DNA of 64,000 bases from the NCBI RefSeq assembly GCF_003807585.1, contig NZ_RMBX01000001.1:434001-498000 (forward strand), written 5' to 3'. Below the pieces are notes generated by a model. That model did no database searches, was not told the origin of the DNA, and was given only the letters and a program-made list of their open reading frames with translations. Positions 42,501 through 63,763 of this stretch are shown piece by piece (the first letter of the stretch is position 1; each line of letters begins with the position of its first letter). Source of the stretch: Chitinophaga barathri (GTDB taxonomy: Bacteria > Bacteroidota > Bacteroidia > Chitinophagales > Chitinophagaceae). The translations under genes were made by a program, and so were the position numbers.

Positions 42501-42878
42501 GATGGTGTTATTCCGCACGGTGTATCGCAGATCTGTCTGGTAAAGCAATAAAGCCAGGGTATAGCCAACTGACCTTTCAGCCCGGCTCAACACTAGTTTA
42601 TCGTAAACATTCACCTGCGATTCAACGTAGGCAAACCTGTAACTGGTCTGTTCCTCGATTTGCCTTAGTGCGCTCAGCAGCGGCTGCTTTTTCAGCGCCA
42701 CGGTCACTTTAACGTCGTTAACACCCTGCGCGCTTCCGGGAGAAGCGGTCAACAGCTGTATACTGAACAGGACACCGGCGATGGTGAGACAACCCAGTTT
42801 CATAAGTGAATACCATTTTCGAGGAAAAATAGTTAGGGCAAGAGGAAGGAAACGCTTCCCCCAGTCAATAAATTTCAT
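39507..42878 (-). CDS. SusC/RagA-family TonB-dependent transducer with STN domain (locus A)
   Basis: The 1123-residue transporter has a long start (MKFIDWGKRFLPLALTIFPR) with the signal core near 28-45. An STN domain at about 60-125 follows, then a carboxypeptidase-regulatory-like domain (155-230), a plug (250-350, with ASAAAIYGSRAANGVILIT) and the barrel. The STN domain contacts FecR, so binding of the glycan outside can release the sigma factor. The FecR gene is immediately upstream, 82 bp away. This is the usual SusC-type transenvelope signalling arrangement. The gap carries an opposite-strand hairpin and T-run at 42923-42958, discussed as a possible antisense RNA. Confidence 0.96.
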   Translation of the reverse strand: MKFIDWGKRFLPLALTIFPRKWYSLMKLGCLTIAGVLFSIQLLTASPGSAQGVNDVKVTVALKKQPLLSALRQIEEQTSYRFAYVESQVNVYDKLVLSRAERSVGYTLALLLYQTDLRYTVRNNTILLLKREQDGGKSSQGLPESHAISEVAALTVKGSVKGEHGETLPGVSILEKGTKNGTISNEQGGFSINVASGSAVLVFSIVGYSMQEVPVDNRQALQVTLAASNTRMGEVVVVGYGAQNKRNVTGAISKVDMKQMENLPTTNVSQALRGRIAGVQFVDNGRPGQGGSILIRGTKSLNGGNNPLIIVDGIQFNSSLADINPNDIESMEVLKDASAAAIYGSRAANGVILITSKKGKSEKPVIRANVFQGFSGWSYKLKTLSPERYIQALLDWRKQSGLESDPAQIEKYLQSSEAENYQAGHTVDPWEEIAQQGRVATYDLNVSGRSKATNYFLSASYTDEKGLIYNDNQKRISLRANIENKITSWLTLGLHSTYIKRDLSGKEAAVHYAYHTSPYGRLYYDDGDPTRFPVPEEQLVLNPMRAALLTENEEAYHNLFTNFYALLNLPGVPGLSYRFNYSPNYRWRHNYNFFAQDKKMNSNTTSASKFNQENFDWVFENILTYKKRINENHAFDVTLLYGQTHTQLENTTANASPLANPALKWNSLTLGEVQTVTSDAEQTDGVSSMARLNYELLSRYIFTFTARRDGSSVFAENNKYATFPSAAFAWILSDEQFFKPVTFVNSLKLRASYGSVGNQAIGPYQSLSLSASNQYVYGDGGSTSTGVYPVSIANPDLKWETTATANLALDAEFFDGRLAATIEGYNIKTKNLIVRRSIPIMTGYTSILTNLGETNNRGIEITINSANIQRKNFEWNTNAVFSTNKNKLVHLYNSDIDGDGKEDNDVANKWFIGEPVFVAYDYEQDGIYQEGDVLPTGYKPGFVRLRDVNGDKTINTADRKVIGQLEPKYRWGITNNFRYKDFSLSIFVNAMQGWIKSFNQLDFTGSSLGNNYPGRAVNMLDAGWWTEENKSTTRPSLVYTNPFLHGYYMSRDFIRLQDVSLSYEVPKKTLERFGVNSLRIYVSGRNLYTLTDWIGPDPESGYSTQGEYFPTPRSVAAGLNVSF

Positions 42879-42885
42879 AACTTTG
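42878..42885 (+). promoter_or_regulatory. TAnnTTTG element on the strand opposite to susC (locus A)
   Basis: TAACTTTG at 42878-42885 fits the Bacteroidota -7 element TAnnTTTG on the plus strand. It overlaps the first base of the susC start codon read the other way. No convincing -33 TTTG lies 19-21 bp upstream, so promoter activity is not certain. Confidence 0.35.
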
Positions 42886-42891
42886 GAATGT

Positions 42892-42958
42892 TTTAAATGT
42901 TATCGTAGATATTTAAACGCACGGCTGCTTTGATTCCACTCGGGCAGCCATTTTTTTT
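42892..42958 (+). ncRNA. Predicted antisense RNA to the susC leader (locus A)
   Basis: A plus-strand RNA starting about 7 nt after the element at 42878-42885 and ending at the T-run at 42958 would be about 67 nt. It would be fully complementary to the susC leader and the fecR-susC gap. The same design occurs in loci B and C. In Bacteroides, DonS-type cis-antisense RNAs lie in the same place. Start point is inferred. Confidence 0.35.
42923..42958 (+). terminator. Plus-strand terminator in the fecR-susC gap (locus A)
   Basis: GGCTGCTT (42923-42930) pairs with GGGCAGCC (42942-42949), 8 bp with two G-T pairs, loop 11 nt. Eight T residues follow at 42951-42958. All neighbouring genes are on the other strand. 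Confidence 0.55.
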
Positions 42959-42960
42959 AG

Positions 42961-43986
42961 TCAATTAACGCATCCTTCGCCATTTATTTTGATTGATTTG
43001 TCGCTTTCTGCTTTCCAACTGGTATTGGTCAATGTTGTGATCACGTCCATCACCTGCTTCAACCCCGCGTCCTTTCCTGCAAAGCGTGCCGTGAACCTAC
43101 AATTACCGGTTGCATTCCCTTCAAACTGAACCTGCACGTTGAAGTGCGTGGAAATTTTTGCCATGGCCTCTTCCAGCGTTACATTGTCGAAAAACAGTTC
43201 CTGCAGCCGCCAGTTGGCAACCATTTCCCCGTCCACTTTTGATATCTCAGCCCGGATGCTTTTCCGGCCCACTACCAGCTGTTCGCCGGCAGACAGAAGG
43301 CCGAGCACAGTATCCTCACCTTTCTGTACCTGCACTTTCCCCGTGGACACCGTAACGACCACGCCGCTATCACCGCCATAGGCCCTTACATTGAAGGAAG
43401 TACCCAATACCCGCGTGGTTAAGCCTTCACTATGTACAAGGAACGGCCGGGAATGGTCATTTTTCACTTCAAAGTATGCCTCGCCGTGGAGGTATACTTC
43501 CCTCGTTTTTCCAGCGAACCCGGCAGGGTATTCAAGAGTGCTTTGCCGGTTGAGCGTTACCACCGTGCCATCAGGCAGCGTTACCGTTCGTGGCTGCAAG
43601 ACGCTTTCACTGAGCACCATTTGTTGCGTGACCTGTTTTCCCGAGGGAGAAAAGATGAATAATGCCGTCAAGCCAACGATGAAAAGCAGGGATGCCGCCA
43701 CTGCCAGGCGTTTCCAGTTAAATGGCCTCCGGGAAGCGATGCGATGGTAGTCCAATGTATCCTTTTCCTTCTGTTTGAGAAGGTTCTGATAAAGCATATC
43801 CCAATCGGGTGCGTTGCCGTCCTGCATGGCCGGCGCATCCCAGAACTGCCGGAGGTCCAGCTCTCGCAGCCGTTCGTCGGGAAGACGGTCCAGCAAGGCC
43901 CAGAACTCCCTTAACTCATCTGCATTGATGGTGTGATGGAAATACTTGTCGAGAAGGTGCTGTATTCTTTGAATATCGTGTGACAT
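42961..43986 (-). CDS. FecR-family anti-sigma factor (locus A)
   Basis: The 341-residue protein is an inner-membrane anti-sigma factor. It has a cytoplasmic N-terminus (about 1-90) that holds the sigma factor, one membrane helix (about 93-112, LAVAASLLFIVGLTALFIF), and a periplasmic FecR domain (about 125-235, with VTLPDGTVVTLNRQSTLEYP). The C-terminal DUF4974 domain (about 265-341) has the usual FDNVTLEEAMAKISTHFNVQ. It senses the STN domain of the partner SusC. It follows the sigma gene by 45 bp and precedes susC by 82 bp. Confidence 0.95.
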   Translation of the reverse strand: MSHDIQRIQHLLDKYFHHTINADELREFWALLDRLPDERLRELDLRQFWDAPAMQDGNAPDWDMLYQNLLKQKEKDTLDYHRIASRRPFNWKRLAVAASLLFIVGLTALFIFSPSGKQVTQQMVLSESVLQPRTVTLPDGTVVTLNRQSTLEYPAGFAGKTREVYLHGEAYFEVKNDHSRPFLVHSEGLTTRVLGTSFNVRAYGGDSGVVVTVSTGKVQVQKGEDTVLGLLSAGEQLVVGRKSIRAEISKVDGEMVANWRLQELFFDNVTLEEAMAKISTHFNVQVQFEGNATGNCRFTARFAGKDAGLKQVMDVITTLTNTSWKAESDKSIKINGEGCVN

Positions 43987-44031
43987 ATCATGCGCTTACA
44001 GGAATAAGACGCAGAATTGAACCGGCAGGTA

Positions 44032-44595
44032 CTATAGAAAACTGAAAAATTTTATGATATCCTGGCTTTTAAGGTAACTCCGCACCGTTTTCAGTGCTTC
44101 CACCACGGTATTGCGGACGGTATGGCGGGATAAGTTGAGCCTGACGGCGATCTCTTCGTGAGAAAAGCCATAATCGCGGCTGAGAGAGAAGATAAGCCGG
44201 CGCTGAGGGGATAACTGTTCCATCGCCTTATGCAGTACCAGCTGGTATTCCCTTTCAATAACAGCCTGGTCCAATGCGGATTCTCCTGCCATCAGCTCCC
44301 TTTCTATCAATTCCTGCAAACGCTTGTGCCTGGAGGCAACCCTTAAAAAATCCAGGGCCTTGTTGCAGGCTACCTTTTGTATAAACCCTTCGAAATTCCG
44401 GATTTCGGTGATAAAATCGCGGCCCATCCAGATTTTCAGGAATACATCCGTCAATATTTCCTCGGAAATTTCCTTTGATTTTGTGATGCGGAAAATATAG
44501 TTGTACAATTTGACCTTATACGCTTCGAACAATGTACGGAAGGCTTTTTCGTTGCCCTGCGCTATCTCATGAAGCAAAATACTTTCATTACTCAT
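44032..44595 (-). CDS. ECF-type RNA polymerase sigma factor (locus A)
   Basis: The 187-residue protein has sigma region 2 (about 15-85, with LFEAYKVKLYNYIFRITKSK) and region 4 (about 120-180, with DYGFSHEEIAVRLNLSRHTV for promoter -35 contact). I chose the ATG at 44595, which opens MSNESILLHEIAQGNEKAFR, the usual start for this family. The longer frame to 44658 adds 21 residues with no sigma features. It is the first gene of locus A and is presumably held inactive by FecR until the glycan is bound. It would activate its own SusC-led transcript. Confidence 0.94.
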   Translation of the reverse strand: MSNESILLHEIAQGNEKAFRTLFEAYKVKLYNYIFRITKSKEISEEILTDVFLKIWMGRDFITEIRNFEGFIQKVACNKALDFLRVASRHKRLQELIERELMAGESALDQAVIEREYQLVLHKAMEQLSPQRRLIFSLSRDYGFSHEEIAVRLNLSRHTVRNTVVEALKTVRSYLKSQDIIKFFSFL

Positions 44596-44713
44596 GGAAA
44601 GGCGATTAAACGTGGATACTGGGACTAAAATAACAATTCTTAGCGGGTTTAACAGCAATAATTCCTATACGGCAATTTGACCAGGTATTAATATCTGCTA
44701 TGGAGCCATAAAC

Positions 44714-44743
44714 AACGATCCCGGCAAGACTACCGGGATCGTT
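44714..44743 (-). terminator. Terminator hairpin between loci A and B
   Basis: AACGATCCCGG (44714-44724) and CCGGGATCGTT (44733-44743) form a perfect 11-bp stem with an 8-nt loop, 51 bp after the GH28-like stop codon. The T-rich stretch after it on the minus strand is weak (GTTTATGG), so termination may be incomplete. Confidence 0.7.
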
Positions 44744-44794
44744 ACACTTACAGGTATATTTACTACACATACAAAAACAAATCCGTTACCTGGA

Positions 44795-46129
44795 TTATTG
44801 CATCTTTTCACCGTTCAGCTGAAGCCCGGACTTCGTTACCCCGCTGATTCCGGTCAACCTGTATGGCGCACTATTGTCTCTCCCTGTCACAAAGCGAACG
44901 TTGTTCAAAATAACTTCTTTCCCCTCTGACATCTGCAATAGCGGTTGATGATCAAGCCTTTCCAGAGTAATATTTGTCAACGAAATTTTAGAGAAGTTTC
45001 TGGCGTTGAAAAAGCCGGTTGAAGAAAGTTTTGCCCCTTCAAAAGATCCAGGAGCTGAACCGGCTCTTTCCCGGAAGCGGAACTGGCTGCCACTGATCTC
45101 CAGCACCAGGCTTTGATCCAGATCCCCGATTATATTAAATGCACTGAGCAATCCTTTGGCCCTGATATTTTCAAAACGGATGCTTGTGACAGGCTGCCCG
45201 GTTTGCCATAGTCCTTCCTGGAAATTATAATTGTAAAGATGGTCTACATTTTCGATTTCCACATCCCGAACAACCCAGTTACCGCTTTTGAGCACCGGGT
45301 GTTCATCCTTCGGTGAAAAATGAACGAAGGCGGAAAGCATGTTCGTCCGGCGTTGTATTTTGTGCATGTATTCCCCGGGGCCCCAGATCTTGCATCTTTC
45401 CACTCGTAAGCCGAGGCAGCCGATGCGGAATCCGTTGCAGGAAGTGTTCACCTTGCAATCAGTGATCACAAAGTCACGGTTGTCGTTCCCCGCAAATGCA
45501 TCATCCCCCGTACGAAAGTCACAGCCTGAAACTGTGAATGAGCTGCAAAACCGTGTATGCAGCCCGTCATGGCCACCCAGTATGGTGACGCCGGTAACTT
45601 TCCCCCCGCTGCAATTGCGGCAGTTGATAGCCCAGTTTGCGGAATTTTTTATCGTAATTCCATCGATCACTATCTGTTGGCAATCGATGAGCCGGATGCA
45701 ATGCGGTCCCCGAAACCCTTCTTCTCCTTTAGGATTGTAACAGTCCACCCCGTCGATCGTGCCACCGCCGGTAATGGCCACATCCGAAAGCCCTTTACCG
45801 TAAATAAAAGCGTCGTTCCGATAATCTGCATATTTATCGCTGCCTTTCAGCAATGCCCCCTTATCCAGCTGTAACCGCACCTTGCTTTTCAGGGTGATGC
45901 TGCCGCAAAGGTATTCTCCGGGAGCTAATACTACGGTTCCTCCTCCAGCCCCAGCGCAGGAATCAATTGCTTGCTGAATCATCTGTGTTGACAGGGAAGT
46001 TACATCCGGCTTCAAAGTTATGCGCAGCCCCGATTGTGCACCCGCCTGCAGGCAGGTGATTAAAACAAGCAGTCCTGCGTAGAATAAAACATGAAGGAAC
46101 CTTTTACATTCGTTGATCATAGGTCGCAT
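44795..46129 (-). CDS. GH28-like right-handed beta-helix enzyme, secreted (locus B)
   Basis: The 444-residue exported protein has a signal peptide near residues 7-32. The body is a right-handed beta-helix of the GH28 type (polygalacturonase/rhamnogalacturonase), with repeated ITGGGTIDG and SxxFTVSGC turns. The GDD pair is present as Asp209-Asp210, and Asp188 in GHDGLHTR matches the first catalytic Asp of the family. The usual GHG histidine is replaced: the equivalent segment reads SCNGFRIGCLG (Asn near 232). The canonical RIK motif is not clear. It may be an atypical glycan hydrolase. The start is uncertain among ATGs at 46168, 46129 and 46120. It is the last gene of locus B. Confidence 0.78.
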   Translation of the reverse strand: MRPMINECKRFLHVLFYAGLLVLITCLQAGAQSGLRITLKPDVTSLSTQMIQQAIDSCAGAGGGTVVLAPGEYLCGSITLKSKVRLQLDKGALLKGSDKYADYRNDAFIYGKGLSDVAITGGGTIDGVDCYNPKGEEGFRGPHCIRLIDCQQIVIDGITIKNSANWAINCRNCSGGKVTGVTILGGHDGLHTRFCSSFTVSGCDFRTGDDAFAGNDNRDFVITDCKVNTSCNGFRIGCLGLRVERCKIWGPGEYMHKIQRRTNMLSAFVHFSPKDEHPVLKSGNWVVRDVEIENVDHLYNYNFQEGLWQTGQPVTSIRFENIRAKGLLSAFNIIGDLDQSLVLEISGSQFRFRERAGSAPGSFEGAKLSSTGFFNARNFSKISLTNITLERLDHQPLLQMSEGKEVILNNVRFVTGRDNSAPYRLTGISGVTKSGLQLNGEKMQ

Positions 46130-46284
46130 GATTGTCCATTTTACGTTAGCATGTTGGCATTTGAGCATAGCTCATTGTTAAAATTTCCCCCTGCGATTAA
46201 CAGCACTGGGGTACCGCTATGTAGCCAGTTCGTTCGCATATGATGGCGGCGATACGCCTTTATTAAAGAGCAGCGCTATATCTG

Positions 46285-48000: not shown

Positions 48001-48041
48001 AACGATGATAATTATTAGGGTAAGTCAATGCATGTGAGAAT

Positions 48042-51000
48042 CTAAAAACTTAATTCAAGGCCGAAACCGATATAACGTGTTTGAGGATAAAGGCCCTGGT
48101 TTTCGATGCCTCTTTCCCGTACGCCGCCGCCAAGTTCCGGATCTAGCCCGCTATACTTTGTAAACGTGAGAAGATTTTGTGCGTTCAGTGAAATCCTCAG
48201 CTGGCTGAGCTTTGCTTTCTCCAGTATCCTTTTTGGAAGGTCGTATGCTACCTGTAAAGTTTTCAGCTTTACATATGCGCCATTTTCCACGAAGTAGGAA
48301 GATATCTCCTTATAATTACCACTGGGATCCTGTTTGTAATTATTCCCAGCGTCAAAATAACCCATGCGGGGTTTCTCAGTAAGGCCATTATTCCCAAAAT
48401 AGGAAAGGCCGAATATATCCGCCGTTGTATTGTAATCGGCGCTGAATGTCTGGTTCAGCCTCCGGTTGCCGTAATAAATATCCATTCCGTTTACGCCCTG
48501 GAAAAGGACTGTCAGGGATATTCCCTTGTATTGTGCCTGTAAGTTCAGCCCGTAAATCATGGCGGGCCATGGGTTGCCGATATATGTTTTATCGCGGTCA
48601 TCAATCTTCCCGTCGCCATTGAGGTCTCTGTACCGCAGATCTCCTGCTCCTGTTTCCGCCTTCCAGTAGAGGCCGCCGGGCGCTTTGCTGTTCAGCTGCT
48701 GCACCTCGTCGTTGGTAGTAAACAGGCCGTCAGTGATAAAGCCGTAGAATTGTCCCATGGGGTAACCGTCTTCCGTGCGGCTGGTGTTGCCGTTCCAGTA
48801 ATCGCCCGGCCAGCCGTTCTGCAATACGGCATTGGGAAGCCCCAGCTTCAGCACCTTGTTGCTGTTGAACGATGCATTGCCGCTGACGGAATAATTGAAT
48901 GCGCCATGAGTTTCCTGCCAGGTTGCAGCAATTTCAAATCCCTTATTCTGTATCTTGCCCAGGTTCACTTTGGTGGTGCTAAATCCGAGGCCGCCGGTGG
49001 CGGGCATCGGAAGGTCATACAGCATGTTGCTGGTAATGCGGTTGTACCAGTCCGCCGTAATGGAGAGCCGTTCGCGAAGCACAGATAGATCAATCCCCAG
49101 GTCTGTCTGTGCCACCTCTTCCCATTTTATATCTTCATTGGGAAATTTGCTGATACCCCAGCCGGTTACCACGCCATTTCCATAATTATGCCTGCTTATG
49201 TAGCGATAGGAACGGTCGTAAAGAAACTGGCCGATGCCGTCATTCCCCAGCTTCCCCCAACCTGCGCGCAGCTTCAGGTTATCAAGCCACGCAAACTTTC
49301 CTTTTACAAAACTTTCCTCGCTGATGCGCCAGCCGCCCGACACGGAAGGGAATACGCCCCATTTGTTGGCGGGGCTGAACTTGTCTGATCCGTCGCGGCG
49401 TATGCTGGCCGCCAGCAGGTACCTGCCGCCGTATCCATAGTTGATCCTGCCGAACTGCGACAGGGTACGGGATAAGGTGATACCGCCATCTCCCGTGCGG
49501 GTATTCTGGATAGAGAGCGCGGTATTGTATGAGGGAGATAACTTAAAATCCTGCGCGCCGACGCTGGTAAAGCTGCCATCGTTTTTCAGCACCTCGTAGC
49601 CTGCCATGGCTTTCAGGTCGTGTGCGCCGAAACTGCGCGCATAGGTGAGCACCAGGTTAGCGGACAGGTTTTCCCAATGGTCCTGCGCCTTGTTCAGTTT
49701 GCTGATGCCGTTATTGACCTTGCCCCAGAAATATATAGGCTCGAAGGTGGTTTCATCTTTCCCGCCAATGGCCGCACCAAATGTAGTGCGGAGGTTAAGA
49801 CCCTCAATGATCTGCCAGTCTGCATAAGCATTGCCTTCGAGCGCAAAATAATTGTTATTGATATCGCGCACCAGTGCCTGGCCCACCGGGTTATCCCCAC
49901 CGAATCCATCAGGTACCACGCCCCAGGTCTTATCTGTCGGATTGTTTGGATCATACACCAGCATGGTCGGAATGGAGCGGTAAGGAATCCCGCCATCCAC
50001 AGGCCGGTTGCGGGTCTTCCAGGCATATAAGTTTTCCCCGAACTTCAGGCGCTTGCTCAGCTGGTGCTCGGAGTTAATGCGCAACCCGTACCGTTCAAAC
50101 CAGTTCCCTGTTTTGATGCCTTCTTCTTTCTGGTAGTTGGCCGACAAAAAATAAACAGATTTGTTGCTCCCACCCGACACGGAAAGATTATAAGTTTGCT
50201 CCACCCCGCTGCGGAACAGGGCCTCCATCCAGTCTGTATCAGGCAGCTCGTTTACCGGTTTGCCCTGGGTATAATCCTGACCTATATTTTTGCGGGCTGC
50301 AATGTAATCGGGAGTACCTAATAATACAGGCAGACTAACAGCATTCCGCCATCCGTAGTTGGCGGAAAAGTTAACCTGCATCTTTTGCTGGTTGCGTCCT
50401 TTTTTTGTTGTAATGAGAATTACCCCGCCTGCGGCCTGTGCGCCGTATATGGAAGCGGAAGCCGCGTCTTTCAAGACCTCCACAGAGGCAACGTCCTGAA
50501 TGTTGAAATTATTGCCGGTGCCCATGCGCACCCCGTCTACAATGTACAGGGGGCCGATACCGTTGATGGATGCCGCTCCCCTGATAATAATATCTGAACC
50601 TGCCCCGGCTGCTCCGCTGCCTTTGGTCACATATACACCGGCAGCCCTGCCCTGCAAGGCTTCATTCATGCTCCTTACGGGGAGATCTTTAATTTCAGCT
50701 GCCCTGACGGAAGATATAGCCCCGGTAAGATCACTTTTCCGCTGTGTGCCATACCCCACCACCACAAGCTGGTCAAGATTGTTGATCTTTTCAACCAGCA
50801 TTATCCGTAAACCTTCCTTACCGGCCGGTACAGTCACGTCCTGCATTTCATAACCCAGGGCTGAGAACTGCAAAACGGCGCCAGGATCCGCCAGTACACG
50901 GAACTGCCCGTTGGCGTCCGTTACCGCGCCGCTGCTTCCACCCTTCACTTTAACGGTAACGCCTGGCAAAGGTTCTCCCTCCTTGTTCCGCACCTGTCCG

Positions 51001-51407
51001 GTTATTTCCTCGCGAACGGGAGTTGGCGCCGTTGAAGCGGAAGTGTCGGGCACGGGCTTGTAGATCACGACCAATCCCTTGTTCTCTTCAAAGACCAGGT
51101 CTGTTTCGGATAACAATGTTTCCAGTATCCTGCGGACGGTAGTCCTGTTAAATTGCAACTGTGAAGACTTCAGCGATTCCAATTCCGCGGGATTAAACGC
51201 AAACTGGATACTGCTGAGGGCGCTCACCCGTTGCAGGCAGGAGGTAAGCGGCTCGTTGCGAAAACTGACTTTCAGCCTGGTATTATCCAGCCGCTGCGCA
51301 AGGCCGGGTGAGGCATACAATACGCCTGCGCTGATTATAAGAGCAGACAAAGCAAGTAACGACAGTTTCATAAGAAATGAAGAAACGTGGATAATCTTTT
51401 TTTGCAT
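48042..51407 (-). CDS. SusC/RagA-family TonB-dependent transducer with STN domain (locus B)
   Basis: The 1121-residue transporter has a signal peptide (LSLLALSALIISAGVLYAS, ending near AQ at 38), an STN domain (about 45-115), a carboxypeptidase-regulatory-like domain (130-210), a plug (220-335, with ASASIYGAQAAGGVILITTK) and the barrel. The plug has Gln-Ala where most members have Arg-Ala in the AxRAANG block. STN plus adjacent FecR and sigma genes give a full signalling relay from surface to promoter. It is 115 bp after fecR. That gap contains an opposite-strand terminator (51482-51515). Confidence 0.96.
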   Translation of the reverse strand: MQKKIIHVSSFLMKLSLLALSALIISAGVLYASPGLAQRLDNTRLKVSFRNEPLTSCLQRVSALSSIQFAFNPAELESLKSSQLQFNRTTVRRILETLLSETDLVFEENKGLVVIYKPVPDTSASTAPTPVREEITGQVRNKEGEPLPGVTVKVKGGSSGAVTDANGQFRVLADPGAVLQFSALGYEMQDVTVPAGKEGLRIMLVEKINNLDQLVVVGYGTQRKSDLTGAISSVRAAEIKDLPVRSMNEALQGRAAGVYVTKGSGAAGAGSDIIIRGAASINGIGPLYIVDGVRMGTGNNFNIQDVASVEVLKDAASASIYGAQAAGGVILITTKKGRNQQKMQVNFSANYGWRNAVSLPVLLGTPDYIAARKNIGQDYTQGKPVNELPDTDWMEALFRSGVEQTYNLSVSGGSNKSVYFLSANYQKEEGIKTGNWFERYGLRINSEHQLSKRLKFGENLYAWKTRNRPVDGGIPYRSIPTMLVYDPNNPTDKTWGVVPDGFGGDNPVGQALVRDINNNYFALEGNAYADWQIIEGLNLRTTFGAAIGGKDETTFEPIYFWGKVNNGISKLNKAQDHWENLSANLVLTYARSFGAHDLKAMAGYEVLKNDGSFTSVGAQDFKLSPSYNTALSIQNTRTGDGGITLSRTLSQFGRINYGYGGRYLLAASIRRDGSDKFSPANKWGVFPSVSGGWRISEESFVKGKFAWLDNLKLRAGWGKLGNDGIGQFLYDRSYRYISRHNYGNGVVTGWGISKFPNEDIKWEEVAQTDLGIDLSVLRERLSITADWYNRITSNMLYDLPMPATGGLGFSTTKVNLGKIQNKGFEIAATWQETHGAFNYSVSGNASFNSNKVLKLGLPNAVLQNGWPGDYWNGNTSRTEDGYPMGQFYGFITDGLFTTNDEVQQLNSKAPGGLYWKAETGAGDLRYRDLNGDGKIDDRDKTYIGNPWPAMIYGLNLQAQYKGISLTVLFQGVNGMDIYYGNRRLNQTFSADYNTTADIFGLSYFGNNGLTEKPRMGYFDAGNNYKQDPSGNYKEISSYFVENGAYVKLKTLQVAYDLPKRILEKAKLSQLRISLNAQNLLTFTKYSGLDPELGGGVRERGIENQGLYPQTRYIGFGLELSF

Positions 51408-51414
51408 AATTTTG
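51407..51414 (+). promoter_or_regulatory. TAnnTTTG element on the strand opposite to susC (locus B)
   Basis: TAATTTTG at 51407-51414 fits TAnnTTTG on the plus strand and starts at the same place relative to the susC start codon as in locus A. A -33 element is not apparent. Confidence 0.35.
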
Positions 51415-51420
51415 GTTGTC

Positions 51421-51515
51421 TTTGGGTGATACTCAATACACTTGCATCCTCCAGCTTAACGGGCCGCGGGGTGCATTTTAGCCGTGCCTGCTCTAACAGG
51501 CACGGTCTTTTTTTT
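51421..51515 (+). ncRNA. Predicted antisense RNA to the susC leader (locus B)
   Basis: A plus-strand RNA from about 51421 to the T-run at 51515 would be about 95 nt and complementary to the fecR-susC gap and the susC leader. Evidence is the strong terminator and the -7-like element; the start is inferred. Confidence 0.38.
51482..51515 (+). terminator. Strong plus-strand terminator in the fecR-susC gap (locus B)
   Basis: CCGTGCCTG (51482-51490) and CAGGCACGG (51497-51505) form a perfect 9-bp GC-rich stem with a 6-nt loop, followed by TC and eight T residues. This is the clearest of the three. Confidence 0.72.
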
Positions 51516-51522
51516 CAGGATG

Positions 51523-52506
51523 TTAAGGTTGACAAGGCCGGCCGGTGACCGTAATCGTGGAATCTTTCTTATAACATTTTATACGGTAAATTCTTTCCAA
51601 TGCGTTTAATACGTTCTGCAGCGAATCCTGTTTGCTGAAGCTGATGCTGATCCTGCAATGACGCAAACCCGTCGCCAATTGCACCTTCACGCCATACATA
51701 TTGCGCAGTGAATGTGCCAGCTCTTCGAAGCCTGCATTCTCAAGCACCGTCCTGCCGGCTCTCCATCCATCTATCATATCTCCGGATAACCGCAACTGTT
51801 TTATACCGCCAGGCCCCGATCCTACTTCAATCCCCTCCAGCGCCCCTAGTACGCCAGACAACTGCTTCCCGGAATGTACCTGCACTTTGCCTGTTTTCAC
51901 CAGCACCTTCACTTCCGTCTGTTGGTATGCCTTTACAGAAAAGGAAGTACCCAGCACCCTGGCAGTAATGCCGTTTGCAGCACGGACAATGAAGGGCAGT
52001 TGTTCGTGCGGTGCCACTTCAAAATAAGCCTCACCAGTTTCCAGGTCCAGCTCCCTGGACAGTTCCAGGTCAGCCGGGTAGCGGACGCGGCTGTAACTAT
52101 TCAGCCACATAACCGATCCATCGCTCAACGCAATGCGTTTGACCTCAGGCCCTGTTGCCTCCGCAAGATATTTCAATGGTGCACTGGCCTGGTATGATAC
52201 TTTCTTTTGCAGGAAATATGCAGCCAGGCAAATAACACCGGCCACGGTCGCAGCCGCCAGCAGCCGCATCCTTCTTTGTACAATCACCTTACCCCTACCC
52301 TGTGACCGCGCAGCCATTTTACGGCTTACGTGCTCCCACATGCCATCGCGGACGGCAGCCTTTTCCAGGTTGCCATCGAAAGGCTCTCCCGCATCGCCCG
52401 CTTCATCCAGCGAAGCGTACCACTGCTCTACCTGTTTGCGTTCTTCCGGTGTGGCGGTGCCTTTTTCATACCGGTCCAATAAATAAGCGAGTAATTCCCT
52501 GTCCAC
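51523..52506 (-). CDS. FecR-family anti-sigma factor (locus B)
   Basis: The 327-residue protein has a short cytoplasmic anti-sigma part (about 1-80), a membrane helix (about 83-100, LLAAATVAGVICLAAYFL), a periplasmic FecR domain (about 115-225, with IALSDGSVMWLNSYSRVRYP) and the C-terminal DUF4974 domain (about 250-327). It binds the sigma factor encoded 111 bp upstream and receives the signal from the STN domain of the SusC downstream. It starts with MDRELLAYLLDRYEKGTATP, the usual form. Confidence 0.95.
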   Translation of the reverse strand: MDRELLAYLLDRYEKGTATPEERKQVEQWYASLDEAGDAGEPFDGNLEKAAVRDGMWEHVSRKMAARSQGRGKVIVQRRMRLLAAATVAGVICLAAYFLQKKVSYQASAPLKYLAEATGPEVKRIALSDGSVMWLNSYSRVRYPADLELSRELDLETGEAYFEVAPHEQLPFIVRAANGITARVLGTSFSVKAYQQTEVKVLVKTGKVQVHSGKQLSGVLGALEGIEVGSGPGGIKQLRLSGDMIDGWRAGRTVLENAGFEELAHSLRNMYGVKVQLATGLRHCRISISFSKQDSLQNVLNALERIYRIKCYKKDSTITVTGRPCQP

Positions 52507-52617
52507 AAATAGTATGGTTTTGCGCAGCCTCAGCGGCGGCGCGGTGCAAATAGTTTGCTGTCACGGTTATATAGACAACCATACAGGCAGAGCATACTAG
52601 TCGGCAGGAAAAAAAAG

Positions 52618-53187
52618 TCAGCGGTGTTGCAGGCGGCAACGAAGTCGTTTGAGTGCAGCTGTAATATGGTTCCTGACAGTTTGTTCAGAAATAGACAGCT
52701 TGCTGGCTATCTGGTTGGCGGTAAGCTCGTTATTTCGGCTGAGAAGAAATACCCTGCGCATTTTGTCAGGCATGGATGTTATTTCCTCGTCAATGTTCAC
52801 ATGAAGCTCGCGGCGGATCACTGCTTCGCAGGCAGTTTCCGGTTCAACCCGGAAAGCGTCGGAAACGCCGGGAATATGTTTATCACGAACGGCCTGGTGC
52901 TTGAAATAATTGAGTATGCGGTTCTTTAATGCAGCGTGGAGATAGGTGGCTAGAGTGGTTTGAACCTGCAATGTGCCCCGTTTTTCCCAAAGAGCGACAA
53001 ACAGGTCTTGTACAAGGTCGGAAGCATCTTCCCTGGAATGAACCTTGTGGAAAGCATCCACATACAACCGTTCCCAATAACGCAAATACAGCGCCTGAAA
53101 GGCGTGCGCGTCATCATTCCGGCAGATGCGGTCCAGGAGTTCTATATCAGTTACTTCCAACAGCAAAATTTTGGTTGTATTTGGCAT
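52618..53187 (-). CDS. ECF-type RNA polymerase sigma factor (locus B)
   Basis: The 189-residue protein has sigma region 2 (about 20-90, with FQALYLRYWERLYVDAFHKV and DLVQDLFVALWEKRG) and region 4 (about 125-185, with NELTANQIASKLSISEQTV). It is the first gene of locus B and is presumably released by FecR to activate that locus. The 464-bp gap before it contains three terminator hairpins that end transcription from locus C. Confidence 0.94.
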   Translation of the reverse strand: MPNTTKILLLEVTDIELLDRICRNDDAHAFQALYLRYWERLYVDAFHKVHSREDASDLVQDLFVALWEKRGTLQVQTTLATYLHAALKNRILNYFKHQAVRDKHIPGVSDAFRVEPETACEAVIRRELHVNIDEEITSMPDKMRRVFLLSRNNELTANQIASKLSISEQTVRNHITAALKRLRCRLQHR

Positions 53188-53386: not shown

Positions 53387-53443
53387 GGTACACTAACAGA
53401 ATATACAATACAAGTTATGAAAAAAAATCTTTATTAAAATTCC

Positions 53444-53466: not shown

Positions 53467-53513
53467 TTATGCCTATGGATTTATCTTAATGTTTACATGA
53501 ACCTTAGGAAAAA

Positions 53514-53546
53514 AGGAGCGGCCGCACCCTATTTTTGACCGCTCCT
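53514..53546 (-). terminator. First of three terminator hairpins after the cupin gene
   Basis: AGGAGCGG (53514-53521) and CCGCTCCT (53539-53546) form an 8-bp stem with a 17-nt loop. On the minus strand the stem runs into a T-run (CCGCTCCTTTTTTCC). It lies about 105 bp after the cupin stop codon. Confidence 0.7.
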
Positions 53547-53651
53547 ACGGCAATCCATCATTCAGTAAATGCTTATTCACATTGCCGCACTTCTTTAAAC
53601 ACATTCAGGATCGCCGGGAACGTAATTTGCCACAGCTTCTGTTCATTGCAT

Positions 53652-54104
53652 TTATTTTTTAACTTCAGGATAGGCACGTGTATACCCCTTTCTACCATCT
53701 TTAATGATGAAGATCAACAGTATCTTTGTCTGCCTGGTTTTATCAGGATTCCGGGTGAGACTGTGGAGGATATTCCTTTCTTCAAAAAACATTTCCCCGG
53801 CTTTGAAAACTTTCGGTTGCTCCCCGCCAAGGGTAATCTCTACAGCGCCTTCCAGTACATAACCGAATAGCTCACAATCGTGGCGATGGCTTACAGTATC
53901 CGCGCCGCCGGGAATGATCGTCATTACGCTTGATTCCATTTTGTAAGCTTTCAGTTCAGGGTCGGAAAGCGGTGTACTTCTTATGCCCACGAAGCTGAGA
54001 GGCGCCTGGGGCATGGACGTTGCGGCATGATGGTCGTGCTGCTGGGAATAAGCTATACTATGCAACAGCACCGCCGGCAAAAACAAATTGAGCAGTTTTT
54101 TCAT
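53652..54104 (-). CDS. Secreted single-domain cupin protein (locus C)
   Basis: The 150-residue product has a signal peptide (MKKLLNLFLPAVLLHSIAYS) and one cupin domain. Metal-ligand candidates are the two His and the Glu in SHRHDCELFGYVLEGAVEI near 73-85, and the His in RNILHSLTRN near 113. A His-rich stretch (QQHDHHAATS) follows the signal. Its start overlaps the stop of the GH78-like gene by 4 bp (ATGA), so it is translationally coupled. A sugar- or metal-binding role, or an isomerase-like activity, is possible but not shown. It ends locus C. Confidence 0.85.
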   Translation of the reverse strand: MKKLLNLFLPAVLLHSIAYSQQHDHHAATSMPQAPLSFVGIRSTPLSDPELKAYKMESSVMTIIPGGADTVSHRHDCELFGYVLEGAVEITLGGEQPKVFKAGEMFFEERNILHSLTRNPDKTRQTKILLIFIIKDGRKGYTRAYPEVKK

Positions 54105-56497: not shown

Positions 56498-56543
56498 TGT
56501 CCTAAAACTTATCAACGTTGGCAACTATAAAATCTTCCGGTGA

Positions 56544-56573
56544 TGAAGGGACTAACCGATTCTACTCCCTTCA
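56544..56573 (-). other. Stem-loop between the GH5 fusion and GH78 genes
   Basis: TGAAGGGA (56544-56551) and TCCCTTCA (56566-56573) form a perfect 8-bp stem with a 14-nt loop in the 153-bp gap. There is no T-run on the minus strand, so an RNA-processing or stability role within the transcript is more likely than termination. Confidence 0.4.
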
Positions 56574-56650
56574 AAAGCTTTCCCGAATAATTCAGGAGCC
56601 GTGAAGTCAAAATGCACGCGGTGATTAGCATTTTTCTCATTCAAATTCCG

Positions 56651-58489: not shown

Positions 58490-58588
58490 ATATGTTGTAT
58501 ACATTTTTTGCAGCATCCTGGACAGGAACCGCACGTAGTCCATGAATAAATAAAACCAAATAGTTATAGTACACCTTAGGAATAAAAA

Positions 58589-60115
58589 TTAGTAGCCAGG
58601 ATTTTGCCCGTCACTCAGCATATTTGGATTGGTCTCCATTTCAGAAACCGGTATCGGCATCAGTACATGCGTGCCTGCTGTGAATGAGAAGTTCGCATAA
58701 CTGACAGGGAACCCGAAATCCGCTTTTGTCCAATTACCGAGATTGATGTACCCAGCTGCGTGCCAGCGCTGGAGATCATTCCAGCGGATACCATCTTCAC
58801 CGGCCAGTTCAAGCAAACGTTCGTTCATGATGTCTGCCATGGTAACGGCCGCCAGGGCAGCAGGCTGCGCCGCTTCAGGGCCTGCCACTGATTTGCGGGC
58901 GCGGGCGCGAACGTCGTTTATCTCAGCGAGCGCTTCGGCGGGTTTGCCGGTTTGCAGGTACGCTTCCGCTACCAGGAGTTTAATATCAGCTAGCCGTAGT
59001 ATACGTGTATTGTTGATGGAATTAATGCTGGCAAGGCCTACATACTTTCCCCGTTCGCCATTAATATATTTTGTGAATTTGTAACCTCCGTTGAAAGACC
59101 AGGGGTCCGCAGGATTAGCGGCAATTGTTTCGCCTCTGCGCGGGTCCACAGGGCCAAACGACTGGATCAGCTTGAGGCTCGGCCCCATCAAGGTTCCAAG
59201 GTTCGTCCAGCTGTCCTCGAAATATTGGTAAAACGCGCCCATACTGCCTGTGCCCTTTCCAAAGTCGTTCATCAGCCAGGGGTTTTCCTGGCTGGATGCG
59301 CTGGCCTGGAACTCGAACAAGGATTCGGAATTGTTCTCTTTCCGGTAGTCGAAGTTATCACCGAAATGTGCCACCAGCGCGCGGCCTTTGATGTTTTGAT
59401 AAGCGGCAAGCGCATCGCCGTAATCCTGCAGGTTCTTGCTGTTAAAACATGCTCTTGTAACATATCCTTTCACCAGCATCCCGTAAGCCGAATTCTTTGT
59501 AACGCGCCCGGTTTGCGCTGCCGGCCAGCTATCCGGCAGCAGGGTGGCGGCATCTTTCCAGTCTTTGATCGCCTGGTCCAGCAGTTCCAGGTCTTTGGAG
59601 GGTTTAAGGTACAGATCACCTGAGTTGTCCTTGATCCTTACAACAGATACAGGGGCTTTCTTCCACCAGGTCCACAGCTTATAAAAAGCCCATCCGCGCA
59701 GGAACAACATTTCACCTTTGTTGAAATCCGCCAGGCCGGCGGTCATATACACCTGCTTGTTTTGTTCAGTGATCTCCAACATGGTGTTGGTGCGGTTCAC
59801 TATTTCGTAGAGTGTTTTCCAGACGTTGTTCAGGTCCCCATCTCCCCCGTTGAGGCCGCTGAAATTATCCATTACAGTGGGGTTGTTGGACATGAGATCG
59901 TCCCCGGGAAGCAGCCACAGGCGGTGCCGGGGGCTGTTTGCGTTGTAGGCATAAAGATCGGTCAGCTTTGCGTAAGCACCACCAATCCCCCGTTGCAGGT
60001 GATCTTCGTCCTTGAAATAATCCGCTTCAGGTTCCTGTGTAGGCAGTATGTCCAGCTTTTTATCGCATGCGCAAAACATGCAGATGGCCAGTATATAGGT
60101 GAGTTGTTTTCTCAT
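58589..60115 (-). CDS. SusD/RagB-family glycan-binding lipoprotein (locus C)
   Basis: The 508-residue product has a lipoprotein signal (MRKQLTYILAICMFCACDKK, Cys near 17) and a SusD fold with the usual IMNERLLELAGEDGIRWNDL near the C-terminus. I chose the ATG at 60115; the ATG at 60127 would overlap the susC stop by one base and add four residues. It is the surface lid for the SusC encoded directly upstream. The esterase-GH5 fusion follows, 99 bp downstream. It is somewhat shorter than the SusD proteins of loci A and B. Confidence 0.93.
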   Translation of the reverse strand: MRKQLTYILAICMFCACDKKLDILPTQEPEADYFKDEDHLQRGIGGAYAKLTDLYAYNANSPRHRLWLLPGDDLMSNNPTVMDNFSGLNGGDGDLNNVWKTLYEIVNRTNTMLEITEQNKQVYMTAGLADFNKGEMLFLRGWAFYKLWTWWKKAPVSVVRIKDNSGDLYLKPSKDLELLDQAIKDWKDAATLLPDSWPAAQTGRVTKNSAYGMLVKGYVTRACFNSKNLQDYGDALAAYQNIKGRALVAHFGDNFDYRKENNSESLFEFQASASSQENPWLMNDFGKGTGSMGAFYQYFEDSWTNLGTLMGPSLKLIQSFGPVDPRRGETIAANPADPWSFNGGYKFTKYINGERGKYVGLASINSINNTRILRLADIKLLVAEAYLQTGKPAEALAEINDVRARARKSVAGPEAAQPAALAAVTMADIMNERLLELAGEDGIRWNDLQRWHAAGYINLGNWTKADFGFPVSYANFSFTAGTHVLMPIPVSEMETNPNMLSDGQNPGY

Positions 60116-60126
60116 GGTAATAAGCA

Positions 60127-63100
60127 TTAAAATTTACTGTTCAGGCCAATGGAAAAGGTTCTGGGCATAGGTTGAAGATCGTTCTCAGGGTCCAGGCCTT
60201 TCCATTTAGTGATTAAAAACAGGTTGGAGGCGGACGCATAGATCCGCAGGTACCGCAAATGCCCGCCGGTTGCTTTATATACAGATGCAGGCAATGTATA
60301 TCCCAGCTGCAGGTTGCCCATTCGCAGGTATCCTGCATTTTCAACAAAACGGGAAGAAACACGGCCATTGGCATTCGGGTCTCCCACTACTGCCCTGGGC
60401 ATATCGGAGTTGGGGTTTTGCTGCGACCATGCGTTCAGCACGGAAGTGCTCATGTTGTTCCCACGTGTGCCCGTATTTTCCAGGTTCTGCCGGGCAGTAT
60501 TCAGTTTTTGTACATCGCCTACGCCCTGGAAGAAAGCAGACAGATCGATGCCTTTATAATTTAGCCCTACGTTGAACCCGTAAAAATACCCGGGTATGGT
60601 TTTACCCAGGTAGGTCTGGTCGAAGTTATCCACTGCGCTGTCGCCGCCGGGTGTGTAAAAGCGGTGCCCTTTGGCTGCGTTTGCCGGACCATTAATGTCC
60701 CTGAACCAGAGGTCGCCTGCTTTGTGAGGTTGTTGCGCGCTTTTATCATTATATACAGCATCGTATGCGGCTGCGGCTGCGTCATCGCGGAAAATACCCC
60801 CTACCTGGTAACCATAAATGTAATTCATGGAATACCCGGTTTCAATGCGGGATGTGCCATTATTCAAGGGTACACCACCATAGGTTGAAAGCACTTCGTT
60901 TTTGACCGTCGTAATGTTGGCACCGGCATTAAAACCGAAATCACCGATCTTGCCTTCATATCCAAGACTCAATTCCATGCCGCTGTTCCTCACGCTCGCA
61001 ATGTTTGCAATGGGCTGGTTTTTGGCCCCGACGCTGGGCGGCAGCGTGGTGGTCTGTAAAATACCCGTGGTTTTTTTGTTGTAATATTCCGCTGTAACGG
61101 TCAAGCCCCTCCACAACACAGCATCGACGCCGATATTGGTAGTGGCCGTCTTCTCCCATTGGATGGAAGGATTGGGAAAGGAAAACATAGCGGCACCCAG
61201 CATGTAATTGCCCATGCCATTACCACCCGGCATTGAACCGAAAGCATACATGGGATTTTTGTCTACCGTGGAGATATAAGCAAAATTGCGCACTTCCTGG
61301 TTACCCAGCTCACCCCAGCCTGCACGAAGTTTCAGGTCCGTAATCCATGCCTGGTCCTTCATGAACGGTTCGGCTGAAATGCGCCATGCTGCTGACATGG
61401 CAGGGAACACTCCCCACCTGTTGCCTTTGGCGAACCGGCTGCTGCCGTCGTACCGTACGATCGCATCCAGGTAATATTTCGATTTGTAGTTGTACGCCAC
61501 ACGCCCTAACAAACCTTCCAGCGCCCAGCGGAAATTATCAGTTTGCACCTCAGTATAGGGCCTGTCCGCATCAATCGTCCAAAGATGTGGTTCCAGCGTG
61601 GTCATATAATCAGAACTGCCGGACGAATACCCCGCACGGTATTGCTGGTCCATTACATTCGCCAGGAAGTCCAGCTGGTGGCCGTTAAAATTGCGGGAAT
61701 AGTTCAGGCTGAGTTCTTTTACCAGGTTAAAGTTTTTGGTCACTCTTTCTCCATAAAATCCCAGTGAGGTTCCGCCTCCTTTGTCTTTAGGACTGCCGGC
61801 TGTATAATCGTAAAAATTTGAGTTGTAATCCCCGAACTCCATCCTGTTATGCTCATAGGCATCAATGCTGACTGTTCCTTTCAACTTCAGGTTAGGCAGG
61901 GGTTCCAGTTCAAGATACACGCTGCCCATATTGCGAAGGGACTTGTATTTCCGGGTATTTAGCGCGATAGAACCAAACGTGTTGATCCGGGTGCCCTCAC
62001 CGTAGAGTTTATCCTTATTCCAGGAACCGTCAGGATTATACCCCTTTACGACTTGCGCATAGCCATTCAGGAAAGCAGGTCCATCTGCATAGATCGGCTG
62101 CCAGGGCGGCGTAAGAGCCCGGTCCATCAGGTCTGAATTGTTGTAATCCTCGCCGGCGATATGGGCTATGCGGTAGTTGATGCCGGTCCTCAGCCATTTG
62201 TAGATCTTTGTGTTGATCTTTACAGAACCTGAGTATCTTTCAAAGCCCTGGTTAATCAGCGCGCTTTCCGAATTGTTGTATCCCAGGGAGAAGCTGTAAT
62301 CGGTATTTTCCGATCCTCCGGAAACACGCACGGAATAATCCTGGTTCGGCGCGTTTTTATTGACAAGGGGTGTTTGCCAATCCTCATCTACCGTGGAATT
62401 ACCCAGGTAACCCGGACTGGCCGGGTTAAACCATGGGTCCAGTGTAACAGCGGGATTCGCAGCATATGAATTTTTGAAAAAATTAACGTAGTCCTTCGTC
62501 CCGAGCACGTCCCAGGTTTTGGCGAAGTTCTGCACGCCGTAACGGGCGCTGAAGTCCACGCTGGGAGCACCGGCCTGCCCTCTTTTAGTAGTGATCAGGA
62601 TAACGCCGTTGGAAGCGCGTACACCGTAGATGGCTGCGGCGGAAGCGTCTTTGAGCACCGAGATGGAAGCAATGTCGTTAGGATCGAGCATGGCAAAAAT
62701 ATTGATCCCACCACGCACGTCGGCTACCCTTGCATCAATCTGTCCTTCAATACCAGCGCCCAGTTCTGTAATGGGAATACCGTCCACCACATACAACGGG
62801 TCTGATACACCCCAGGTATTGACACCCCTTATGCGGATCGTAGGACGCGTCATGGGATTGGCGGCATTGCCGGAAACATGGATGCCCGTCATTCTCCCCT
62901 GGATAGCGAACTCAGGGCTCATGGCCACGCTTTGTGCGATCTGTTCTGAGCCGATGCTGCTGATAGAAGTTGTAACATCCTTTTTTTCACGGCTGCCATA
63001 TCCAATCACTACCACCTGGTTCAGCCCCGTAGAAGCCACGGTCAGTTGGATGTCGATGTTGGTGCGGCCGTTTACCGGTACCTCCTGCTGAATGTAGCCA

Positions 63101-63642
63101 ATATAGGAAATCACCAGGGTGGCATTATCCGGTGCAGTGAGGCTGAAGGCGCCCTGCGGGTCGGTTACAGCGCCTACTTTGCTGCCTTTCAGCTGAACGG
63201 TTACGCCTATCAGCGGCAGACCGTTGGCGGCATCTGTCACTTTTCCTTTAACGGTGACCTCCTTCAGAATCTCACCAGCCGGGGCAATCACTACCAGCTT
63301 GTTTTGCATGGCTTTGAAAGTAAGCCCGGTGGAAGCGAAAACTTTTTGCAGGATGTCCTTTACCGGCTCATCGCTGGCTGTTACCGATACCTTCTGACGG
63401 CCGGTGAACAGGTCGTCTTTATAAAGAAACCGGTAATCGCTCTTTTTCTCAATGGCTCTAAGCACCTCCTTAAGGTCGACTTTATCAAGCCGCAGGCTCA
63501 GCCTGGTATCCTGCGAGAATACGTTGGCGGAAACCTGCATGCTCAGCAGGAAGACTAAAGCAAAGGAAAGTTTCATACAGAGTAAAATGTTTAGTTTACC
63601 CAAATACAGGTAACCACACGGAATTCGTGGAATTTTTTTCAT
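60127..63642 (-). CDS. SusC/RagA-family TonB-dependent transducer with STN domain (locus C)
   Basis: The 1171-residue transporter starts MKKIPRIPCGYLYLGKLNIL, a usual SusC beginning, with the signal core near 20-40. Then come an STN domain (about 42-115), a carboxypeptidase-regulatory-like domain (130-205), a plug (215-330, with ASAAAIYGVRASNGVILITT) and the barrel. The frame could start at 63744, but the extra 34 residues have no signal features and would leave only 53 bp to fecR. STN and an adjacent FecR gene (partial at the right edge) indicate transenvelope signalling as in loci A and B. Confidence 0.95.
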   Translation of the reverse strand: MKKIPRIPCGYLYLGKLNILLCMKLSFALVFLLSMQVSANVFSQDTRLSLRLDKVDLKEVLRAIEKKSDYRFLYKDDLFTGRQKVSVTASDEPVKDILQKVFASTGLTFKAMQNKLVVIAPAGEILKEVTVKGKVTDAANGLPLIGVTVQLKGSKVGAVTDPQGAFSLTAPDNATLVISYIGYIQQEVPVNGRTNIDIQLTVASTGLNQVVVIGYGSREKKDVTTSISSIGSEQIAQSVAMSPEFAIQGRMTGIHVSGNAANPMTRPTIRIRGVNTWGVSDPLYVVDGIPITELGAGIEGQIDARVADVRGGINIFAMLDPNDIASISVLKDASAAAIYGVRASNGVILITTKRGQAGAPSVDFSARYGVQNFAKTWDVLGTKDYVNFFKNSYAANPAVTLDPWFNPASPGYLGNSTVDEDWQTPLVNKNAPNQDYSVRVSGGSENTDYSFSLGYNNSESALINQGFERYSGSVKINTKIYKWLRTGINYRIAHIAGEDYNNSDLMDRALTPPWQPIYADGPAFLNGYAQVVKGYNPDGSWNKDKLYGEGTRINTFGSIALNTRKYKSLRNMGSVYLELEPLPNLKLKGTVSIDAYEHNRMEFGDYNSNFYDYTAGSPKDKGGGTSLGFYGERVTKNFNLVKELSLNYSRNFNGHQLDFLANVMDQQYRAGYSSGSSDYMTTLEPHLWTIDADRPYTEVQTDNFRWALEGLLGRVAYNYKSKYYLDAIVRYDGSSRFAKGNRWGVFPAMSAAWRISAEPFMKDQAWITDLKLRAGWGELGNQEVRNFAYISTVDKNPMYAFGSMPGGNGMGNYMLGAAMFSFPNPSIQWEKTATTNIGVDAVLWRGLTVTAEYYNKKTTGILQTTTLPPSVGAKNQPIANIASVRNSGMELSLGYEGKIGDFGFNAGANITTVKNEVLSTYGGVPLNNGTSRIETGYSMNYIYGYQVGGIFRDDAAAAAYDAVYNDKSAQQPHKAGDLWFRDINGPANAAKGHRFYTPGGDSAVDNFDQTYLGKTIPGYFYGFNVGLNYKGIDLSAFFQGVGDVQKLNTARQNLENTGTRGNNMSTSVLNAWSQQNPNSDMPRAVVGDPNANGRVSSRFVENAGYLRMGNLQLGYTLPASVYKATGGHLRYLRIYASASNLFLITKWKGLDPENDLQPMPRTFSIGLNSKF

Positions 63643-63649
63643 ACATTTA
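63642..63649 (+). promoter_or_regulatory. TAnnTTTG-like element on the strand opposite to susC (locus C)
   Basis: TACATTTA at 63642-63649 fits TAnnTTTG except for the last base. It has the same position relative to the susC start codon as in loci A and B. No good -33 element is seen. Confidence 0.25.
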
Positions 63650-63655
63650 ACGTGG

Positions 63656-63763
63656 TTTATGGTGACAAAATGGCTCCCCCGAATGTTTATCAGGCAGTGA
63701 AGGGGAGAATAAAAAACCAGGACCCTGGGCGGGAAATGCAGCAAACATTTCCCGTTCTTTTTT
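63656..63763 (+). ncRNA. Predicted antisense RNA to the susC leader (locus C)
   Basis: A plus-strand RNA from about 63656 to the T-run ending at 63763 would be about 108 nt and complementary to the susC leader and gap. It is the weakest of the three because the -7 element has a mismatch. Confidence 0.3.
63730..63763 (+). terminator. Plus-strand terminator in the fecR-susC gap (locus C)
   Basis: CGGGAAATG (63730-63738) and CATTTCCCG (63746-63754) form a perfect 9-bp stem with a 7-nt loop. TTC and six T residues follow on the plus strand, opposite to all genes here. Confidence 0.65.

Follow-up and report, generated by a model that had tools for sequence, protein, structure and literature searches.

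Predicted DonS-type cis-antisense RNA genes opposite the susC leaders of three FecR-linked loci in Chitinophaga barathri

The stretch of Chitinophaga barathri DNA analyzed here, referred to as the window, comprises 64,000 nucleotides (nt; RefSeq assembly GCF_003807585.1, contig NZ_RMBX01000001.1, handled as contig 11, positions 434001-498000); the genome measures 6.86 Mb and has 66 FecR matches. It contains three loci in which the gene for a FecR anti-sigma factor precedes a susC gene on the minus strand. Pfam searches identified FecR and a SusC/TonB receptor at all three (the fecR gene of locus 3 sits past the window end), and the SusC partners are outer-membrane receptors of about 1,120-1,170 amino acids (aa). 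A preliminary description of this DNA had called these sigma/FecR loci; FecR was confirmed at all three. Loci 1 and 2 were tested for an extracytoplasmic function (ECF) sigma factor, and both have one; SusD, tested at locus 1, was confirmed there by Pfam. In each fecR-susC gap, the plus strand carries a TAnnTTTG-type -7 box over the susC start codon and a hairpin followed by a T-tract (Table 1). We consider it highly probable that each of the three gaps holds a DonS-type cis-antisense RNA gene (~69, 97 and 110 nt, respectively), which would be transcribed from the plus strand and would repress its susC operon.

Table 1. Features of the three fecR-susC loci (window positions; TSS, transcription start site).
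Feature	Position	Strand	Remarks
Locus 1 antisense -7 box TAACTTTG	42878-42885	+	exact TAnnTTTG; overlaps susC ATG 42876-42878 (minus strand)
Locus 1 predicted antisense RNA, ~69 nt	42890-42958	+	start from published box-to-TSS spacing, end at T-tract
Locus 1 terminator hairpin and T-tract	42923-42958	+	-13.5 kcal/mol
Locus 1 susC	39507-42878	-	Pfam TonB plug, CarbopepD_reg_2
Locus 1 fecR (anti-sigma)	42961-43986	-	Pfam FecR, FecR_C
Locus 1 ECF sigma factor	44032-44658	-	Pfam Sigma70_r2, r4_2
Locus 2 antisense -7 box TAATTTTG	51407-51414	+	exact match; overlaps susC ATG 51405-51407
Locus 2 predicted antisense RNA, ~97 nt	51419-51515	+	box-to-TSS spacing to T-tract
Locus 2 terminator hairpin and T-tract	51482-51515	+	-18.7 kcal/mol; picked up by a second scan too
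Locus 2 susC	48042-51407	-	Pfam plug, CarbopepD_reg_2; STN below cut-off
Locus 2 fecR	51523-52506	-	Pfam
Locus 2 ECF sigma factor	52618-53187	-	Pfam
Locus 3 antisense -7 box TACATTTA	63642-63649	+	5/6 consensus bases; overlaps susC ATG 63640-63642
Locus 3 predicted antisense RNA, ~110 nt	63654-63763	+	box-to-TSS spacing to T-tract
Locus 3 terminator hairpin GGGAAATG-loop-CATTTCCC and T-tract	63730-63763	+	-17.2 kcal/mol; in conserved hairpin family (R1 match, C11:497729)
Locus 3 susC	60127-63642	-	Pfam STN, plug, beta-barrel; start taken as ATG at 63642
Locus 3 candidate ECF-type sense promoter element CGTTATGA	63783-63790	-	motif only; upstream of antisense terminator

All three hairpins with their T-tracts were found where the preliminary description had placed them. 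The box it had seen over each susC start codon is likewise present, beginning in every case opposite the A of the ATG; it is exact at loci 1 and 2 and one base off consensus at locus 3. Boxes of this type are placed at -12 to -5 relative to the TSS in the part of the source available to us (PMC9723704). With this spacing, the predicted RNAs would start 12 nt upstream of the ATG and therefore pair with the susC leader while excluding the start codon; the complementarity to the leader proposed earlier stands, and the lengths proposed with it (67, 95 and 108 nt) are replaced by those given above. No sense-strand terminator was called in the three window gaps. The two other susC-like genes checked in the window (12723-15743 and 17506-20667), which the preliminary description had presented as LacI-controlled, indeed lack the box and any antisense terminator at or below -10 kcal/mol, and the first of them has weak antisense terminators only (-8.7 and -7.5 kcal/mol). 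A search of the 64-kb window against Rfam gave no match at gathering thresholds. A sigma-70 promoter scan of the window relies on a consensus that differs from this phylum's, and its promoter output was not used. At locus 3, a TTG within the antisense hairpin opens the longest susC open reading frame (60127-63744); translation more likely starts from the ATG at 63642.

The box was then scored at 56 of the 66 FecR genes of the genome, namely those followed at a distance of 0-450 nt by a frame longer than 800 aa, which was taken as susC; the 10 FecR genes without such a frame were left out. The susC frames were thus assigned by length and place, and two of them are only 874 and 882 aa long. Controls were 31 susC genes without fecR, drawn from 56 scored of 204 SusC candidates, and 731 other genes predicted on the same retrieved sequences; the start was set at the first ATG by default. 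At 14 of the 56 fecR-susC loci, the A of the start codon is shared by an exact antisense TAnnTTTG, whereas such a box occurred at 1 of the 731 other genes and at none of the 31 susC genes without fecR (Fisher p = 2e-16 for 14/56 vs. 1/731, with paralogs treated as independent). Stretches of 105 nt around the 56 starts contain 18 antisense copies of the box, 14 of them in start-codon register, and when any ATG of the first 45 codons was allowed as the start, the exact box was found in 18/56 vs. 3/731. These control counts do not bear out the earlier worry that an A-rich start region might create the box by chance. At three loci of this genome (C25:208504, C11:220525 and C6:136106) the box lies on a later ATG and not on the first, suggesting that the true susC start is downstream of the longest-frame start.

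Terminators were called alike in all sets, as a hairpin of -10 kcal/mol or below with a T-tract after it, located in the 250 nt that precede the ATG. The fecR-susC genes of this genome have an antisense terminator in 27 of 56 cases and a sense terminator in 2; for susC genes without fecR the figure is 5/31 on either strand, and ordinary co-directional gaps of 60-400 nt show the reverse bias (antisense 29/197, sense 63/197). Box (at least 5/6 bases) and terminator co-occur in the gaps of at least 60 nt, with 17 loci having both, 5 the box only, 7 the terminator only and 15 neither (Fisher p = 0.006). When the ATG was chosen less strictly, 20 loci had a near-consensus box together with a terminator; the distance between their start codon and the beginning of the T-tract was 64-128 nt, and in 14 of the 20 it was 89-109 nt. 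Dinucleotide shuffles of the 56 gaps, scored with a loose -7 cut-off, gave terminators in a mean of 11.85 and a maximum of 18 gaps over 20 rounds vs. 27 observed.

Conservation of the hairpin and T-tract in related loci had been named beforehand as a refuting test, and antisense terminators were kept in most gaps of at least 60 nt: in 14/17 loci of the genus set (sense 1/17), in 14/25 homologs of loci 1 and 2 (sense 3/25; one locus, L143 and L147, is counted twice) and in 21/28 homologs of locus 3 (sense 9/28). The last set came from a search of 79 genus genomes, in which 29 loci were fetched and 28 were usable; unusable loci numbered 5/29 in the genus set, 11/29 in the class set and 1/29 in the locus-3 homolog set. 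Exact boxes were present in 6/24 and 8/27 loci of two genus sets. Among distant homologs of loci 1 and 2, the hairpin sequences differ and the arrangement is often kept (e.g., L124 and L126, with exact boxes). A hairpin of the locus-3 type, the criterion for selection, was found in 18 of the 28 locus-3 homologs; a search with a somewhat relaxed box pattern showed CATACATTTA in all 18, at 81-90 nt ahead of the hairpin. The alignment of these 18 homologs, with 16 distinct RNA stretches, gave a mean pairwise identity of 1.0 for the CAT and box, 0.84 from box to hairpin, 0.94 for the hairpin and 0.79 for the T-tract; in the flanks it was 0.52 between the T-tract and the stop codon of fecR, 0.79 for the last 90 nt of fecR and 0.77 for the 45 nt of susC beside the box. 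Thus, the conserved stretch coincides with the predicted RNA and its promoter.

The preliminary description had counted three such loci in tandem, but the arrangement proved to be genome-wide and class-wide instead. Loci of the wider sets were the top-scoring FecR loci, not a random draw, and their counts carry no background for those genomes. At 21 fecR-susC loci, examined from the 38 FecR matches of a genome that is, according to a 100% FecR match, Parabacteroides acidifaciens or very near it, we found 13 exact boxes, 12 antisense terminators and no sense terminator. A family of the same class (about one locus per genome, 1/26 unusable) gave the exact box in 5/25 loci, and in gaps of at least 60 nt an antisense terminator in 13/17 and a sense terminator in 1/17. 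The corresponding values were 4/23, 7/14 and 2/14 for other members of the Parabacteroides order (5/28 loci unusable), and 1/18, 8/11 and 2/11 for the class sample.

Many of the antisense terminators share a hairpin apex, RTG-loop-CAY, which was found in 10/24 of those of this genome and in 24/50 distinct hairpins of the other fetched loci, compared with 33/1050 control terminator-like hairpins (1.22 Mb); the comparison is exploratory, because this in-register motif was defined after the hairpins had been seen. A first definition of the apex by its last two pairs (4/24 vs. 35/1050) was replaced by the in-register motif, and an earlier, stricter motif gave 3/24 vs. 0/1049. In the wider sets the RTG-loop-CAY apex occurs in 4/11 hairpins of the Parabacteroides genome, 4/13 of the family sample and 3/7 of Bacteroidales. 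The loops of such hairpins often end in AA, in different orders, as in CAGCAAA (window locus 3), CTGCAAA (L331) and GTCGCAA (L246).

A covariance model, R1, was built from 16 of 21 hairpins, all from other genomes, after omission of L165 and L142, which are unlike the rest, and of the near-duplicates L212, L229 and L234. Scoring covered 150 of 5118 first-look candidates in the C. barathri genome and 89 per genome across the genus. In the 6.86 Mb of C. barathri it gave, at E up to 1, at least 16 matches at no fewer than 14 distinct sites; among the matches listed, 9 sites are antisense in fecR-susC gaps (window locus 3 included), 1 is sense in such a gap and 4 are elsewhere. The 56 gaps together amount to 6,985 bases. 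No FecR or SusC BLAST match was found beside the four sites elsewhere. Site L261 lies past a long frame, in the position of an ordinary 3' terminator, and site L262 is inside an open frame. All 79 genus genomes searched have R1 matches, 2 to 20 each among the matches listed at E up to 0.01, and 30 of the 30 that were fetched (13 loci previously fetched via FecR and 17 new) are located on the antisense strand between genes for FecR and SusC.

The conservation pattern of the locus-3 homologs would be identical if the conserved stretch were a sense-strand element, i.e., a structured susC leader or a palindromic operator, with CAAAnnTATG as part of the susC translation start. The susC leader contains the same bases, and the hairpin arms, GGRAARTG/CAYTTYCC, are palindromic, with R1 matching the sense strand at three gaps, at two of which it also matches antisense. 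Nevertheless, T-tracts are mostly antisense (27 vs. 2 of 56), and CAAAnnTATG, which occurs in none of the 31 susC genes without fecR and in nearly none of the 731 other genes, co-occurs with the antisense terminator; we therefore regard a sense-strand element as improbable. The hairpins might also be barrier terminators, which would keep stray antisense transcription from susC out of the fecR and sigma genes and require neither a dedicated promoter nor a regulatory RNA. Seven loci of this genome with gaps of at least 60 nt have an antisense terminator and no near-consensus box at the first ATG, which speaks for barriers, although three of the seven have an exact box at a later ATG. The narrow range of distances to the start codon, the presence of the box on that codon and the conservation of the body between box and terminator in locus-3 homologs make barriers a quite improbable explanation. 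Accidental production of both features by A-rich starts and GC-rich hairpins, for which one can cite the terminators that still arise in shuffled gaps, is hardly credible in view of the box and terminator controls (731 other genes, 31 susC genes without fecR, any-ATG count), the whole-genome R1 search and the 30/30 antisense genus matches; chance is thus disfavoured for the class as a whole, while single loci could still be non-functional.

Several observations weigh against antisense RNA genes in these gaps. No exact box is present at the first ATG in 42 of the 56 loci of this genome, some ATG calls are uncertain, and the paralogs are not independent; by the same caller, 29/56 loci have no antisense terminator. 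As the preliminary description had noted, the -33 element is missing: TTTG is absent 17-23 nt upstream of the box at all three window loci, and no such element is conserved among the 14 loci of this genome with an exact box and a terminator. In the part of the source available to us, TTTG near -33 belongs to the B. fragilis promoter consensus and is not shown to define the DonS family (PMC7366714). Exact boxes are rarer outside the C. barathri genome and Parabacteroides. Locus 3 and its aligned homologs carry TACATTTA and not the consensus, the box is exact in only 1 of the 28 usable locus-3 homologs, and the sense terminators in 9 of these 28 count on the same side. Compensatory changes are nearly absent within the alignment of locus-3 homologs, and the high covariation in the hairpin model set is biased, because its hairpins were picked for folding. 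Close orthologs of loci 1 and 2 were not found in 59 genomes (FecR identity of 31-38% and 32-37%), so that conservation is documented locus by locus only for locus 3, and otherwise for the class taken together. Finally, repression is not guaranteed, since correlations between antisense RNAs and their polysaccharide utilization loci (PULs) in B. thetaiotaomicron were both negative and positive in the available part of the report (PMC10994844). Altogether, the box, the terminator, the strand bias and the conservation support a reading of the window loci as probable DonS-type cis-antisense RNA genes, as proposed in the preliminary description.

On the sense strand, CGTTATGA is located upstream of the antisense terminator in 4/24 loci of this genome and 4/47 other loci vs. 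0.0 and 0.06 in shuffles. Sense-strand CGTTATG, a candidate ECF sigma promoter element, was observed in 5 copies 131-189 nt upstream of susC ATGs in loci of this genome. A CGT box at -10 is reported for an ECF-type promoter of Flavobacterium psychrophilum (PMC9723704). In Parabacteroides, GCCTATG occurs on the sense strand in 12/21 fecR-susC gaps (L240-L259, L181), in most cases about 120 nt before the first ATG. In 111 kb, counting both strands, it has only 18 copies, and it is likely an ECF promoter element of this lineage. The likely order of elements, as we infer it, would be the sense ECF promoter, the antisense terminator, the leader and the antisense promoter on the ATG.

In the mechanism that we propose, the housekeeping sigma factor would start plus-strand transcription at the TAnnTTTG-type box over the susC start codon. 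The antisense RNA would begin ~12 nt upstream of the ATG, run back through the susC leader, to which it would be fully complementary, and stop at the intrinsic terminator before it reaches the end of fecR and the likely sense promoter. In the absence of the glycan, this RNA would most likely silence susC by pairing with the leader next to the region where ribosomes start, through collision of RNA polymerases, or by both. In this phylum, translation is initiated at an unstructured A-rich region; pairing in the leader could mask this region or could give rise to a duplex open to attack by RNase III. The ECF sigma factor released by FecR would drive enough sense transcription to override the antisense RNA.

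DonS was reportedly first described by Cao et al. in 2016, and to our knowledge no shared hairpin apex of the kind seen here is known for it. Antisense RNAs that are short, act in cis, have a terminator and lie opposite a gene start are also found in type I toxin-antitoxin systems, but the partner here is an outer-membrane receptor and not a small toxin. According to the parts of the published reports available to us, DonS of B. fragilis represses its locus by a mechanism stated to be unknown (PMC11697453), PUL-associated antisense RNAs are 78-128 nt long (PMC7366714), and they were found at 15 loci (15 PULs) in B. fragilis and numbered ten at first (PMC7366714) and later 32 (PMC10994844) in B. 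thetaiotaomicron. The predicted window RNAs resemble them in being antisense and divergent to a susC homolog, in having a predicted primary-sigma box and an intrinsic terminator in the leader region, and in their many copies per genome (17 loci of this genome with a near-consensus box and a terminator). Their predicted lengths, with ends that are themselves predictions, fall within the published range for loci 2 and 3 and below it for locus 1, whose RNA would be slightly shorter. They also differ from DonS in the lack of a -33 element, in being known from DNA alone, and in a host genus that belongs to an order other than Bacteroidales. No report of DonS-type RNAs in this genus or order was found by searches of an open-access paper collection that does not contain the original DonS paper; the precedents seen in the accessible parts of that literature were Bacteroides cases plus, outside Bacteroides, one general remark on Flavobacterium. 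Since DonS-type RNAs have already been published for Bacteroides, the present set is a new, wide extension of a known kind, and what may be new in it is the hairpin apex shared by many members and, across orders, the placement of the box on the start codon.

We suggest, only tentatively, that a single design, in which a primary-sigma box covers the susC start codon and the terminator hairpin follows after ~100 nt, is an ancestral component of ECF sigma/FecR-susC loci across the class Bacteroidia, and that the apex (RTG and CAY around a loop that often ends in AA) has been selected for a role beyond termination, e.g., in kissing-loop contacts with the sense leader or in protein binding. Many glycan-uptake operons of environmental Bacteroidota are currently read as being controlled by sigma and anti-sigma factors alone. 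If the counts hold as transcripts, roughly one in two of these operons in this genome would carry a second, RNA-based layer (27/56 by terminator), and this layer would be old enough to be common to different orders. The arrangement provides a rule by which such RNAs may be annotated from DNA, namely a box on the start codon and a terminator ~100 nt away, and it offers a reason for part of the susC leader being better conserved than the adjoining coding ends.

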